A DNA stretch of 64,000 nt from contig NZ_LT906662.1 of assembly GCF_900205865.1 (NCBI RefSeq), positions 1,364,001-1,428,000 on the forward strand. The letters are read 5' to 3'. This DNA is from Thermoanaerobacterium sp. RBIITD. GTDB lineage: Bacteria; Bacillota; Thermoanaerobacteria; Thermoanaerobacterales; Thermoanaerobacteraceae. The position numbers were made by a program, and so were the translations under genes. The notes below the pieces were generated by a model. That model was not told the DNA's origin, made no database searches, and saw only the letters and a list, made by a program, of their open reading frames with translations. Shown one piece after another: positions 24,066 to 32,534 of the stretch (the stretch's first letter is position 1; each line of letters opens with the position of its first letter).

Positions 24066-24839
24066 TCAAACCTTGTCGAAACTTCTACCGACCATAAGTC
24101 TACAAAAGTAGATAATAACAAAGGAGCATATGACCATTAAAATTGAAAGACTCAAAGCGGAATTTAAATCCCCTTGCATTGCAGTATATATTGCAAGTGA
24201 CATTGTCCTTGTCTTGCCTGCCAAATTACCAGCAAAAATAATAGTCGCGCCGAATTCCCCCATGGCTCTTGCCCATGTACTGATTAACCCTGCCATGAGA
24301 AATTTCTTTGTTATAGGAATGTAAACAACCAACATAAGTCTAAAATCATCAACACCAATTAACTGAGATTCTTCCCATATGGTCTTATCAACAGACAAAA
24401 ATGACGAATATGCGGCTTTAATATAATATGTCGACGATATGAATATCTGTGCCATTATTACAGCGACCATTGTAAATGATATTTGTATACCGAAAGCATC
24501 GAGCAACTTACCAATTAAACCTTGCCTCCCAAATGCCATTAAAAGTGCAATGCCTGCAACTGCAGGAGGTAAAACCGCAGGGATATCCACAAGATATTCA
24601 GCAAATGTTGATATCTTTCCTTTTTTAAAAGCAATATAGTATGCAAGAGGTGTTCCAAATATAAATGCAATAATGACAGTTACAACAGATGATATTATGC
24701 TGAGCAACAATGCATCAATAGCAGAACCCGATAAAAGTCCCGCCATTATTATATTTAAAGGAGTTTTTACTATTAGTGAAACAAAGGGTATTAATAAGAA
24801 AAAAAATAGAATTGATGCAATAGAATAAATATATAGCAT
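24066..24839 (-). CDS. modB: Molybdate-type ABC transporter permease
   Basis: About 257 residues with five to six membrane helices and the inner-membrane EAA loop EESQLIGVDDFRLMLVVYIP, which docks the ATPase. The helix arrangement and VDIPAVLPPAVAGIALL match ModB/WtpB permeases. It is the last gene of nifB-nifX-modA-modB. No ATPase gene (modC) follows; the next gene is an unrelated response regulator, so the ATPase must be elsewhere or lost. ATG at 24839 chosen because GGGGTG lies 8 nt upstream. Confidence 0.9.
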   Translation of the reverse strand: MLYIYSIASILFFFLLIPFVSLIVKTPLNIIMAGLLSGSAIDALLLSIISSVVTVIIAFIFGTPLAYYIAFKKGKISTFAEYLVDIPAVLPPAVAGIALLMAFGRQGLIGKLLDAFGIQISFTMVAVIMAQIFISSTYYIKAAYSSFLSVDKTIWEESQLIGVDDFRLMLVVYIPITKKFLMAGLISTWARAMGEFGATIIFAGNLAGKTRTMSLAIYTAMQGDLNSALSLSILMVICSFVIIYFCRLMVGRSFDKV

Positions 24840-24858
24840 TTGAAACACCCCTAATTAA

Positions 24859-25647
24859 TTATTTTTCCATTATAAATCCGTAATCTTTTAATGTCTTTTT
24901 TCCATCGCCATTTAATATAAAGTCTACGAATTTCTTAGATAAAGTCTTGTCTTTAGTACCTCTGACAATAGCAACAGGATATGTTGCGATGACATTGTAT
25001 TTATCAGGTATGTCAATAACTTTTACTTTATCTAAAAAGGGTTTAGCGTCAGTCACATAGACGATGCCAGCATCTGCTTCACCCATTGCAACCTTTTGTG
25101 CAACATCTGTAACAGTTACTTCTTTTGTAATGATATTTTTTAGTGCTGCATCTTTAAATCCTTTATTATCTGCATCGATTTTTGATAATATATCAAATGC
25201 ATATTTACCAGCTGGGACGGATTCATCTGCAAGTGCTAATTTTAAACCTGTATTTTTTATATCCATAAAATTACTGATATTGCTGTCTTTATATGCGATA
25301 ACAATGAGCTTATTATATAATAATATTTTAGGCGCCTCAACAAGGCCTTTATCTTGAAGTGGTTTCATATTTCTTTCATCAGCAGACACAAATATATCGG
25401 CATATGCTCCTTGTTCTATTTGTGTTCGCAATGTTTGGCTTCCTGCGGGATTAAGGATTATTTTAACGCCTGGGTTTAATTTTTCAAACTGCTTAACAAT
25501 TGTATTCATAGAGTCTTTTAGGCTTGCTGCTATAAAAACCGTCAAAGATTTATTATCATTTCCACCAACATTTGTATTACATCCTGTTAACATTATAATA
25601 ATCGAAAAAAGAGCTATAATAAGCCACATTATTTTTAGATACCTCAT
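24859..25647 (-). CDS. modA: Molybdate/tungstate-binding lipoprotein
   Basis: About 262 residues. A lipoprotein signal peptide ends in LTGCN. The mature part carries FIAASLKDSMNTI near the start and NPAGSQTLRTQIEQGAYAD, the ModA pattern for gripping tetrahedral oxyanions through main-chain and Ser/Thr contacts, then ADIFVSAD. It delivers molybdate to the ModB permease. Location in the nifB operon fits supply of Mo for FeMo-cofactor. GGAGG lies 9 nt before the ATG at 25647; a GTG one codon earlier is also possible. Confidence 0.93.
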   Translation of the reverse strand: MRYLKIMWLIIALFSIIIMLTGCNTNVGGNDNKSLTVFIAASLKDSMNTIVKQFEKLNPGVKIILNPAGSQTLRTQIEQGAYADIFVSADERNMKPLQDKGLVEAPKILLYNKLIVIAYKDSNISNFMDIKNTGLKLALADESVPAGKYAFDILSKIDADNKGFKDAALKNIITKEVTVTDVAQKVAMGEADAGIVYVTDAKPFLDKVKVIDIPDKYNVIATYPVAIVRGTKDKTLSKKFVDFILNGDGKKTLKDYGFIMEK

Positions 25648-25653
25648 CACTCG

Positions 25654-25989
25654 TCACCTCCTTATAAAATTTTCTAAATATTCTTTAAGCACATCCTCTA
25701 TAAAGCCGGGATTCACATATGCTTTTATGCCTTTTTCTTTAAGCCTCATTATAGCAGAGCTTCCTATTCTACATACAGCAACTGCTTCACAGTCCTTGAT
25801 TTTATCTATTACTGTGTTCATCCTGTCATTAACATCATCACTACCGCAAGCATTTATACATTCTCTCACATCACTTACAAAATAACTTCCCTCATCGCTT
25901 AAGTCAACAATGATAAATCTCTTTGCATGGCCAAAATGCTCATTGACCATCTTGCCATCCGATGTCGCAATAGCAATTCTGTGTATCAT
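25654..25989 (-). CDS. NifX/NifB-C-type FeMo-cofactor-binding domain protein
   Basis: 111 residues with the dinitrogenase iron-molybdenum cofactor biosynthesis fold: IAIATSDGKMVNEHFGHAKR at the start and AVAVCRIGSSAIMRLKEKGI later. In many organisms this domain is fused to the C-terminus of NifB; here it is a separate gene overlapping nifB by 4 bp. It probably carries NifB-cofactor or iron-sulfur fragments. Confidence 0.87.
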   Translation of the reverse strand: MIHRIAIATSDGKMVNEHFGHAKRFIIVDLSDEGSYFVSDVRECINACGSDDVNDRMNTVIDKIKDCEAVAVCRIGSSAIMRLKEKGIKAYVNPGFIEDVLKEYLENFIRR

Positions 25990-26807
25990 ATGTCCTCACC
26001 TAAAAGTCCAACTGCATCTGCTCTACACTGTCTGCAATGGTACATTTGATTTACAATTTTTGAGTTTTCCATCCTCACTTTTTCCAGTTCCTTGCACTCA
26101 GGTACTTTTATATGTGAAAGCTCCGCCTGTGAAATAAGCGGCATTATATTCATGATGTCTATTCCAAGTTCTTTTACTTTTTGGGCTATTTCTTTTATAT
26201 GTCCATCATTTATACCTGGTATTAAGACAGTATTAATCTTAACAAGTATACCATTATCACAAGCAGCTTCTATTCCCTCTAACTGTTTTTCTATAAGCAA
26301 TTTTGCTGCATCTATTCCTTTGTACACAATATTTTTATATACTGCATAATCATATATTTCTTTACCTATATATGGATCTATAGCATTTATCGTTACTGTA
26401 AGTGTACTGATGCCACAATCTATAAGAAGAGGTAATTTATCACTTAAAAGTAGCCCATTTGTACTTAAGCATTTAATCATATCTTTAAATTCAAGGGAAA
26501 TTAATTTAAAAGTCATAAATGTCTCCTCATTGTAAAGCGGATCACCGGGACCTGCTATTCCTACAACAGAAATGCAAGACTCTTTTTCTAATATATCTTT
26601 CGTATAGCATAATGCTTCATATGGATTCATTACCTTAGTTGTTACGCCGGGTCTATTTTCATTTATACAGCCTGTCTTTCTATCACAGTATTTGCATTTT
26701 ATATTGCACTTAGGTGCTACAGGTAGATGTATTCTGCCGTGATATTTAGTCACATCAGGATTAAAACACGGATGTCCGAAATCTACAATATTAAATTCTT
26801 TATTCAT
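25986..26807 (-). CDS. nifB: NifB: radical SAM FeMo-cofactor core synthase
   Basis: 273 residues. HPCFN near the N-terminus, the radical-SAM cluster motif CNIKCKYC near residue 34, IAGPGDPL, VLIPGINDGH and the C-terminal CRQCRADAVGLLGED are all NifB marks. NifB fuses two 4Fe-4S clusters with a SAM-derived carbide to make NifB-co. It is the core version lacking the NifX domain, which is the next gene. The frame is intact, in contrast to the wrecked structural nif genes on the other side of the divergent promoter region. Confidence 0.93.
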   Translation of the reverse strand: MNKEFNIVDFGHPCFNPDVTKYHGRIHLPVAPKCNIKCKYCDRKTGCINENRPGVTTKVMNPYEALCYTKDILEKESCISVVGIAGPGDPLYNEETFMTFKLISLEFKDMIKCLSTNGLLLSDKLPLLIDCGISTLTVTINAIDPYIGKEIYDYAVYKNIVYKGIDAAKLLIEKQLEGIEAACDNGILVKINTVLIPGINDGHIKEIAQKVKELGIDIMNIMPLISQAELSHIKVPECKELEKVRMENSKIVNQMYHCRQCRADAVGLLGEDI

Positions 26808-26824
26808 TCTCGTCCTCTCCTTTT

Positions 26825-26903
26825 AAAAAATTAAAGGCCTTTAATCAAATGATTAAAGACCTCAATGCCTTTAAAAAAAGTCCTTAACCATGCGGTTAAA
26901 GAC
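26825..26903 (-). promoter_or_regulatory. nifB leader with two tandem terminator-like hairpins
   Basis: In the nifB leader RNA, hairpin 1 (26880-26903) pairs GTCTTTAACC with GGTTAAGGAC and is followed by seven U. Hairpin 2 (26836-26861) pairs GGTCTTTAATC with GATTAAAGGCC and is followed by a U-rich tail. The two units are imperfect tandem copies, each introduced by AAAGGC. They lie between a consensus promoter and the nifB ribosome binding site, so they could act as attenuators. No trans-factor is identifiable. Confidence 0.65.
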
Positions 26904-26938
26904 TTCTTCGCCTTTTTATTATGAAAATTATTGAAAAT

Positions 26939-26967
26939 ATATTATCATAATAGATTTTCAATGTCAA
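26939..26967 (-). promoter_or_regulatory. Promoter of nifB operon
   Basis: Minus strand: perfect TTGACA, 17-bp spacer, TAATAT. It implies a leader of about 125 nt before the nifB ATG. Confidence 0.85.
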
Positions 26968-27118
26968 TACTTTATTTTTTGTGCTTTTCTAATAAGGAAA
27001 AGAACTTTTTTGTTTTGACAATGAAATCATGGATTAACCATAACATAGCTTTATTTTTTAAGGAGGTGATACCTTTTGTCACTATCATAATTAATTTTTT
27101 TTATTAATTAAATATTAA

Positions 27119-27629
<511 letters not shown>

Positions 27630-27649
27630 TTGAAAGGAGGCTTATATAT

Positions 27650-28150
27650 TAAATATTTAAACCAAAAGTTGTAGGCATATATGCTACATGTCCTGTCTAC
27701 CTTATTGGTGATGACATTAAAGCTGTCGCAAAAAAAAGCTGAAGAAGAACTCGGGATAAAAGTCATAACTGTAAGCTGTGAAGGTTATTCTTTGACGACT
27801 CAATGATATACCAATACTGAAAAAATTATTAAAGAAGAGATGGAAAAAGATAAAACCTAAGCTTGATTATTACAGAGAAAGACTTAAAAGAAAAAGAGCA
27901 ATACTTTTTGTACGCGGTTTCTCGCGCACACCATTATAATAAATATCTACTAAAAGATCTTGAAATGGAGGCAATTATTGCCAGTTATGAGTTCGCACAC
28001 CGTGACGATTATGAAGGGCATAAAATAATACCTGAGATAAAAGAAGCACCACATCATAAGATACTCGACACATATCACTTTGAAAGGGTAATAGAAAAGA
28101 TGTCAAAGTTTTTACAGCCAGCACATCGAGTTAAATCGGTTCACATGTGA
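27650..28150 (+). pseudogene. nifD: nifD remnant (nitrogenase alpha chain)
   Basis: Pieces in shifting frames: VVGIYATCPVYLIGDDIKAV with the P-cluster-type Cys, then EEELGIKVITVSCEGY. After a large deletion come LDYYRERLKRKRAILFV and YEFAHRDDYEG. The order matches NifD, but the central part, with most cofactor ligands, is gone and at least three frameshifts are needed. GGAGG lies upstream, but the spaced codon is ATT rather than ATG. Confidence 0.85.
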
Positions 28151-28475
28151 CAGTTTTTTCTAATATGGTAAAATCTGCTATAGATACATTTGCCAAAAAA
28201 AGCTCACCGAATGGAAAAACAAACATTATTCCGGGGTTTATGATCCCCGGTGATTTGCGCGAAATCAAAAGAATATTGAAGCTAATGGGAATAGGTGCAA
28301 TCATTCTTCCAGATATCTCTGATGTGCTTGATGCACCGATGACAGGTGAGATACACCTCTATCAGAAGGGCGGAACGACCATATCTTTGAAATAGAAGAT
28401 ATGGGTAATTCAATAGAAGCACTTGTCCTTGGAAGAGAAGCAGGAATTGGTCCTGCCGAATTATGTATTCAGCTA
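28147..28475 (+). pseudogene. nifK: nifK remnant, central part (nitrogenase beta chain)
   Basis: The frame reads FSNMVKSAIDTFAKKSS, NIIPGFMIPGDLREIKRIL and DVLDAPMTGEIHLYQKGGTT. After a shift comes EIEDMGNSIEALVLGREAG. This is the middle of NifK. The N- and C-terminal thirds are not contiguous with it; a C-terminal piece survives at 29061-29352. Confidence 0.85.
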
Positions 28476-28623
28476 TATTAACAAATCAGACCTTAATTAC
28501 CTTCAATACAGCAAAATCGAATATGACGACAAGTACAATAGATTTTTTATAAGTGTGCCACACAATCTTAATGCACTTCGCTCAAGCTGTTCGAAATATA
28601 ACGATTGTAATTATATTAATTGA
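28476..28623 (+). other. Unassigned open frame inside the nif remnant cluster
   Basis: About 48 codons reading SYINKSDLNYLQYSKIEYDD, then RFFISVPHNLNALRSSCSKY, ending in TGA. It does not fit NifD/K/H or the PII proteins as I know them. It may be the tail of another broken nif-associated gene. Confidence 0.4.
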
Positions 28624-28958
28624 AAGGGAATAAACAATATCTGAAGGTAATACGTGTTATAATAATGCCCGAAAAAGAAAGGCAAGTTGTTGAAGTTCTT
28701 GATAAAAACGGGTACAGCTCAATGACAAAAATGCACATATTTGGCAGTGGAAAACAAAAGGGATTACAAGTAGGACCTATTGTCTATGATGAACTACCTA
28801 AAATCATGCTTATGCTAGTCGTAAAAGATAATGATGCATCAAAAGTAGTAGAATTAATAGAAAATAATGCTCGTACAGGAAACATAGGTGATGGCAAAAT
28901 ATTCATAAGTGAAGTCGATGAAGCATACACGATTAGAACTGGTAATAAAGAATTATGA
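28620..28958 (+). CDS. nifI1: NifI1: PII-type nitrogenase regulator, start codon probably lost
   Basis: The frame is open along the full length of a NifI1 (about 105 residues): KVIRVIIMPEKERQVVEVL, KQKGLQVGPIVYDELPK, TGNIGDGKIFISEVDEAYTI. NifI1/NifI2 bind 2-oxoglutarate and ATP and switch off nitrogenase post-translationally. The codon where Met is expected (28641) is CTG, and AAAGGG lies just upstream at a normal distance from it. The TTG at 28620 overlaps that ribosome binding site and adds seven foreign residues. So the protein may be made weakly or not at all. It is the least damaged gene of the cluster. Confidence 0.8.
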   Translation: MKGNKQYLKVIRVIIMPEKERQVVEVLDKNGYSSMTKMHIFGSGKQKGLQVGPIVYDELPKIMLMLVVKDNDASKVVELIENNARTGNIGDGKIFISEVDEAYTIRTGNKEL

Positions 28959-32354: not shown

Positions 32355-32364
32355 TCATTACTCA

Positions 32365-32513
32365 ACATACTCGTTGGGTTTTAGCACTATACGGCATAGG
32401 ATTTACCGGCTGCATTAGATTAAACCTTATTACGGTAGAATCTGTTGACCCATTGGCATCTCTCGATGTTTCCGGGCATCAGCATGTATCCGCATAGGAG
32501 CCTCACTTAACGA
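32365..32513 (-). promoter_or_regulatory. M-box (ykoK leader) Mg2+ riboswitch
   Basis: On the minus strand the hallmark blocks appear in order: GTTAAGTGAGGCTCCTATG, GATGCCCGGAAACATCG, GAGATGCCAATGGGTCAACA, ATAAGGTTTAATCTAATGCA and CCTATGCCGTATAGTGCTAA. They match the M-box aptamer that folds on Mg2+ and turns transporter genes off. It lies between a sigma-A promoter and the MgtE_N/Nramp operon. Confidence 0.95.
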
Positions 32514-32534
32514 TAATTATTTTTTTGTAAGTAA

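Follow-up and report, generated by a model that had tools for sequence, protein, structure and literature searches.

How are the nif genes of anaerobic diazotrophs activated where nifA is missing, as the excerpted text of PMC8209448 reports for most of these organisms, Clostridium included? The leader RNAs described here bear on this question. In the window, by which we mean the whole 64,000-nucleotide stretch of the Thermoanaerobacterium sp. RBIITD genome that was analysed, nifB (radical SAM part, 273 aa, 25986..26807, minus strand) is the first gene of a row that continues on the minus strand with a NifX/NifB C-terminal-like protein (111 aa, 25654..25989), a modA-like gene (24859..25650) and a modB-like gene (24066..24848). 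The earlier note on this DNA had described a promoter and two hairpins with U-runs ahead of nifB, and that description stands. A sigma-70-type promoter (TTGACA-17-TAATAT, 26939..26967, minus strand), conserved in the alignment of relatives, is followed by two copies of AAGGCNNNGANGTCTTTAA, 43 nt apart and with 0 mismatches each, and each copy folds into a 13-bp hairpin with a U-run after it. At up to 3 mismatches, AAGGCNNNGANGTCTTTAA has nine matches in the window, against 2.29 expected. A ribosome-binding-site-like element, AGGAGAGG, was read from the sequence at 26814..26821 on the minus strand.

What the earlier note lacked is an alternative hexaloop hairpin overlapping each terminator. Each unit of the leader can adopt two mutually exclusive folds on the minus strand, a small hairpin (P) or a terminator hairpin (T). 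In the first unit, P1 (AAAGGC-GAAGAA-GTCTTT, 26898..26915, with G1 and G4 in the loop) lends its 3' arm to T1 as 5' arm (AAGTCTTTAACC-GCAT-GGTTAAGGACTT plus U-run, 26873..26905); in the second, P2 (AAAGGC-ATTGAG-GTCTTT, 26855..26872, with A1 and G4) does the same for T2 (AGGTCTTTAATC-ATTT-GATTAAAGGCCT plus U-run, 26825..26862). P1 and P2 are separated by 24-25 nt, with T1 in between. Folded in isolation, T1 and T2 have energies of -15.6 and -15.7 kcal/mol, and P1 and P2 of -4.3 and -5.7 kcal/mol. The whole leader reaches -38.6 when folded freely, into the terminators, against -22.7 when the P hairpins are forced, and the leader of a relative, L009, gives -44.0 against -22.2; stopping is therefore the default, and P must be held by something. 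The P stems are 6 bp each here and 6 and 4 bp in L009. Two overlapping units with an R1..G4 loop, as present in this leader, were seen in none of 1000 dinucleotide shuffles. A consensus terminator scan of the window reported T2 only, not T1. The full-length leader is single-copy, a whole-genome DNA search returning itself alone. Its first 30 nt, the promoter part, have four equal matches of 83 percent each, at 1501-1530 of L004-L007.

The earlier note had named a lack of conservation before other nifB genes as the finding that would count against it. The layout is in fact found in five relatives within the genus, which contribute six loci (L009, L010 and L046-L049, with L010 and L049 on the same contig): all five nifB-bearing genomes keep the promoter, P1/T1 and P2/T2. 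Across 7/7 aligned rows, 25/25 terminator pairs and 10/10 P pairs are standard. Covariation is weak; in the window, two pairs of T2 have both bases changed, which was equalled by 12 of 500 shuffles, and the P pairs vary on one side only, with no two-sided P pair. The G at loop position 4 is present in both nifB loops in all aligned rows, and position 1 of P1 is G in every relative, while P2 has A1. The divergent nifH leaders of the five relatives are likewise built in series, AAGC-AAAGGC-GCTT going with T1 and TGGC-AATGGA-GCCA with T2, although the scanner left the first unit unscored in L010 and L049. In the nifH leader of L009, P2 is preceded at a distance of 1 nt by a candidate partner hairpin rich in A/U; it overlaps T1, and we took it as chance. 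In an order-level relative, G023, nifH is preceded by two terminators in series; the P stem of the first is imperfect, and the second has GGGAGC-GGAGAT-GCTCTC.

Similar leaders occur elsewhere in the source genome. Two serial units precede the second nif cluster (L180), two lie behind nifV of that cluster and before a modB-like gene (L181), and two precede another modA-modB operon (L167), each leader being headed by a TTGACA promoter; of the two units, the scanner missed the first in L180 and the second in L167 and L181, and these were found by eye. P1 and P2 are 65-71 nt apart in these leaders, and both loops carry A1, as they do in the nifH leaders. The pattern GGCANNGRNGCC has 26 matches in the genome, of which three fall in these promoter-led leaders; for the other 23 the scanner found no P/T unit. 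The glnA leader has a single hexaloop (GGAC-AAGGGT-GTCC); its terminator was read by eye in the source genome, and the glnA leaders of seven relatives were scored by the scanner. In G004 and G008 no NifB-like radical SAM gene was found, and the glnA unit is nevertheless present.

The source genome has one ANTAR gene, encoding a REC-ANTAR response regulator, and it lies directly behind glnA. An ANTAR gene is present in 9/9 genomes of the genus, eight of which have just one. The glnA-linked protein matches Rv1626 (1s8n, E 3.8e-29) and EutV (6wsh, E 8e-24). When EutV residue numbers were mapped to the PDB chain (offset +2, ten of ten named residues agreeing), the G4-contacting Arg142, Glu160 and Tyr164 proved to be kept, as was Met172. 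The counterparts of Asn173, Arg175 and Arg177 are Asp, Thr and Pro in the ANTAR protein of the genus, and the joint loss of these three residues of EutV abolished its binding (PMC8934654, in the part of the text available); the stem contacts must therefore differ from those of EutV.

Across a 299-genome sample of the phylum, uncorrected for relatedness, ANTAR was found in 49 of the 50 genomes with nifB (nifB matches being accepted to an E of 1e-60) as against 100 of the 249 without. By a hand count of coordinates, seven of 51 nifB genomes (G021, G040, G082, G089, G101, G178 and G276) carry an ANTAR gene no more than 20 kb from nifB. The row in G021 reads MCP-like sensor, ANTAR, glnB-like, amtB-like, nifH, nifI1, nifI2, and is headed by a P/T unit with loop AAAGGC; ANTAR was named by profile and the nif genes by tblastn, the other names being given by eye. 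At this place (L185, 688-7014), the MCP-like sensor ORF directly before the ANTAR gene is a possible signal input for the protein.

The bases A1 and G4 of the hexaloop define ANTAR RNAs (PMC3369931). A scan that allowed any loop, run over 51 nif loci from the class and the phylum, gave 41 units, of which 27 were R1..G4 (22 A1..G4 and five G1..G4), and all other classes together made up 14; in nif leaders alone the figure was 22/28. These units are not independent, some coming from near relatives such as L141/L142, L148/L151 and L147/L152. Of 43 leaders of at least 250 nt that were used from the 51, 16 had one or more R1..G4 units and six had two or more, while after shuffling, repeated ten times, 0-2 leaders had one unit and none had two. 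The remaining 27, all outside the genus, had no R1..G4 unit by this test; they include Caldicellulosiruptor-side genomes that do have ANTAR. The loop counts, together with the EutV structure in which G4 and not A1 touches the protein (PMC8934654, same excerpt), make G1 a plausible variant of the ANTAR loop. Units also lie downstream of nif clusters and before PII-like genes in L125 (16852-16904) and L127 (16302-16354), a hint that ANTAR regulons may be larger in other clostridia. Taken with the co-occurrence, the leaders suggest that in many diazotrophs of the clostridia ANTAR proteins exert control at the level of RNA.

We therefore consider it probable, at about 0.8 on the evidence of sequence, that the nifB leader mediates ANTAR-controlled transcription antitermination of nifB, the nifX-like gene and modAB. 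Attenuation by an ANTAR-type antiterminator had been among the suggestions of the earlier note, and it is supported by the anatomy of the leader and its conservation, by the statistics of the loops and by the presence of an ANTAR gene next to glnA. By default, the nascent RNA would fold into T1 or T2 and the polymerase would stop. Nitrogen limitation may activate the glnA-linked response regulator, which would then grip the P1 hexaloop as it emerges and block T1, and go on to hold P2, so that T2 is blocked in turn and the polymerase reaches nifB and modAB. Several observations point against ANTAR control: the missing counterparts of EutV Asn173/Arg175/Arg177, the G1 of P1, a P1-P2 spacing beyond the working range of EutV, the weak covariation and the 27 leaders outside the genus in which the test detected no R1..G4 unit. 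How the two units would share the work is a separate matter. The fate of T1 must be settled while P2 is still untranscribed, which should leave P1 to act alone; the spacing of 24-71 nt, the terminator lying in between and the rarity of a close P1 in the genus (1/14 units, and that one doubtful) likewise suggest one hexaloop per terminator, in series. A close canonical P1 stands before 12 of 31 units in other clostridia, with 0.6 expected. We hold only tentatively, at somewhat less than even chances, that a single hexaloop deals with each terminator, and we give the same weight to the fuller proposal of single ANTAR hexaloops in series, in which P1 by itself opens T1 ahead of the synthesis of P2.

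The strongest alternative stays within ANTAR control and excludes single-hexaloop action: P1 would merely recruit the protein for P2, T2 would be the sole controlled terminator and T1 would be incidental or weak. EutV does require both hexaloops (PMC3369931, excerpt), P2 carries the fuller A1..G4 loop, and the nifB gap is just 24-25 nt, which a short inner hairpin could shorten further. This arrangement nonetheless fits less well with a T1 that equals T2 in stability and precedes P2, with the 65-71 nt spacing of L180, L181 and L167, with the one hexaloop of glnA, and with the abolition of EutV action by longer linkers (PMC3369931, PMC8934654, excerpts), and we regard it as doubtful, if worth keeping in mind.

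An unlikely reading is that some other factor, a metal- or nitrogen-responsive riboswitch or another RNA-binding protein, controls both hairpins and that the hexaloops are secondary. The presence of modAB in the operon fits it, as does the best sub-threshold Rfam match, PyrR, whose 24.6 bits fall short of the gathering score of 54. The leader from promoter to ATG is almost all P/T, however, with no conserved region of aptamer size, and the loops are biased toward R1..G4. A search of 4227 Rfam models at gathering and permissive thresholds returned nothing usable at the nifB leader, and with no match at threshold there the earlier note's alternative of a metal-responsive RNA finds no support. 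Elsewhere in the window, an M-box magnesium riboswitch (134.9 bits, 32360-32521, minus strand) lies upstream of a 419-aa ORF that is MgtE-like by eye. We think it very improbable that two strong serial hairpins with U-runs form a plain, unregulated double terminator shielding nifB from read-through: both lie downstream of a promoter conserved in all rows, so that plain terminators would silence their own gene, and the P stems and loops are kept.

The adjoining nif genes are decayed. The divergent cluster at 27131-28958 on the plus strand consists of fragments of nifH, nifD and nifK, followed by a PII-like ORF, and its nifH has ATA in place of the ATG of relatives. The leader of this nifH remnant (26976..27138, plus strand) has no R1..G4 hairpin left, even at 3 bp, where those of the relatives keep such hairpins. 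The broken nifHDK and the likeness of the two unit copies might suggest that the nifB leader is itself a relic of repeats in a decaying region, but this is barely credible for a single-copy leader that is kept in five relatives (L009, the one checked, having intact nif genes) and that is complete beside a decayed nifH leader. Decay of the one leader beside preservation of the other suggests that selection still acts on the nifB-modAB leader, perhaps on account of molybdate uptake or because it serves the second nif cluster. This second cluster (L043, G000:C1:2694001-2713000) has another organisation, an ORF judged transposase-like by eye separating nifH from nifI1. A third, decayed nifB of the genus type (L044, G000:C1:165001-184000) has modA and a truncated modB-like ORF as neighbours, further ORFs of transposase type close by and no convincing leader remnants, which brings this one genome to three nifB loci.

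If ANTAR hexaloops do act in series, the stop signals would multiply, so that nif, molybdate uptake and glnA would be tightly gated, and a natural case of single-hexaloop antitermination would have been found. Molybdate uptake would belong here to the same regulon as nif. The nifB leader may help to explain how clostridia control nitrogen fixation, and its layout makes it possible to test directly if two hairpins are needed for ANTAR antitermination.

The earlier note knew of no described element with this sequence. ANTAR-target RNAs, nitrogenase-linked ones included, were in fact described in 2012 (PMC3369931; this and the following comparisons refer to excerpts of the papers cited), whereas the layout of a single hexaloop per terminator does differ from them. 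The 2012 definition comprises a six-base loop having A1 and G4 on a stem of 3 bp or more, and two such hairpins joined by a short linker, to which an ANTAR protein binds and thereby increases read-through. The nifB leader has the stems and six-base loops, G4 in both, a P2 overlapping an intrinsic terminator and a genome that encodes ANTAR; A1 is found in P2, with G1 in P1, and in place of a short-linked pair the hairpins of these leaders stand 24-71 nt apart, with a terminator between. The minimal site of 2022 is a single hexaloop whose G4 contacts the conserved Tyr, Glu and Arg; the RNA here has such hexaloops, while the protein keeps Arg142, Glu160, Tyr164 and Met172 but not Asn173/Arg175/Arg177. 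Natural single-hexaloop antitermination was left open by that structure paper, which expected it only without the time limit of a transcribing polymerase (PMC8934654).

With the dual-hexaloop RNAs of EutV of Enterococcus faecalis and the NasR and AmiR leaders, the leaders described here share a short stem with a hexaloop, a conserved G4, A1..G4 in P2, a P hairpin overlapping an intrinsic terminator, an encoded ANTAR response regulator and a nitrogen-related target. In the model for EutV, P1 serves to recruit and P2 to antiterminate (PMC3369931); eut linkers measure 5-12 nt, those of 3 or 14 nt are impaired (PMC3369931), and one lengthened by 20 nt no longer works (PMC8934654). Here, each of two hexaloops has its own terminator, P1 and P2 are 24-71 nt apart, the nifB P1 has G1, and glnA has a single hexaloop. 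Nitrogenase-linked ANTAR RNAs were reported in Pelobacter carbinolicus, and Desulfotomaculum acetoxidans has 13 elements in six units, hence several per leader (PMC3369931); these regulons likewise place ANTAR RNAs before nitrogen-fixation or assimilation genes, but molybdate uptake, a target here, is not named in the excerpt. Clostridium nitR, a glutamine synthetase antiterminator mentioned alongside an antisense RNA (PMC4676874), similarly links an ANTAR-type regulator to clostridial ammonia assimilation, the excerpt making no mention of nif leaders. Our literature search brought up no further publication on ANTAR leaders in front of nif or mod genes of clostridia, although Table S2 of PMC3369931 may list some. 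The nifB leader thus looks like a variant of the described ANTAR switch, new in having one hexaloop per terminator.
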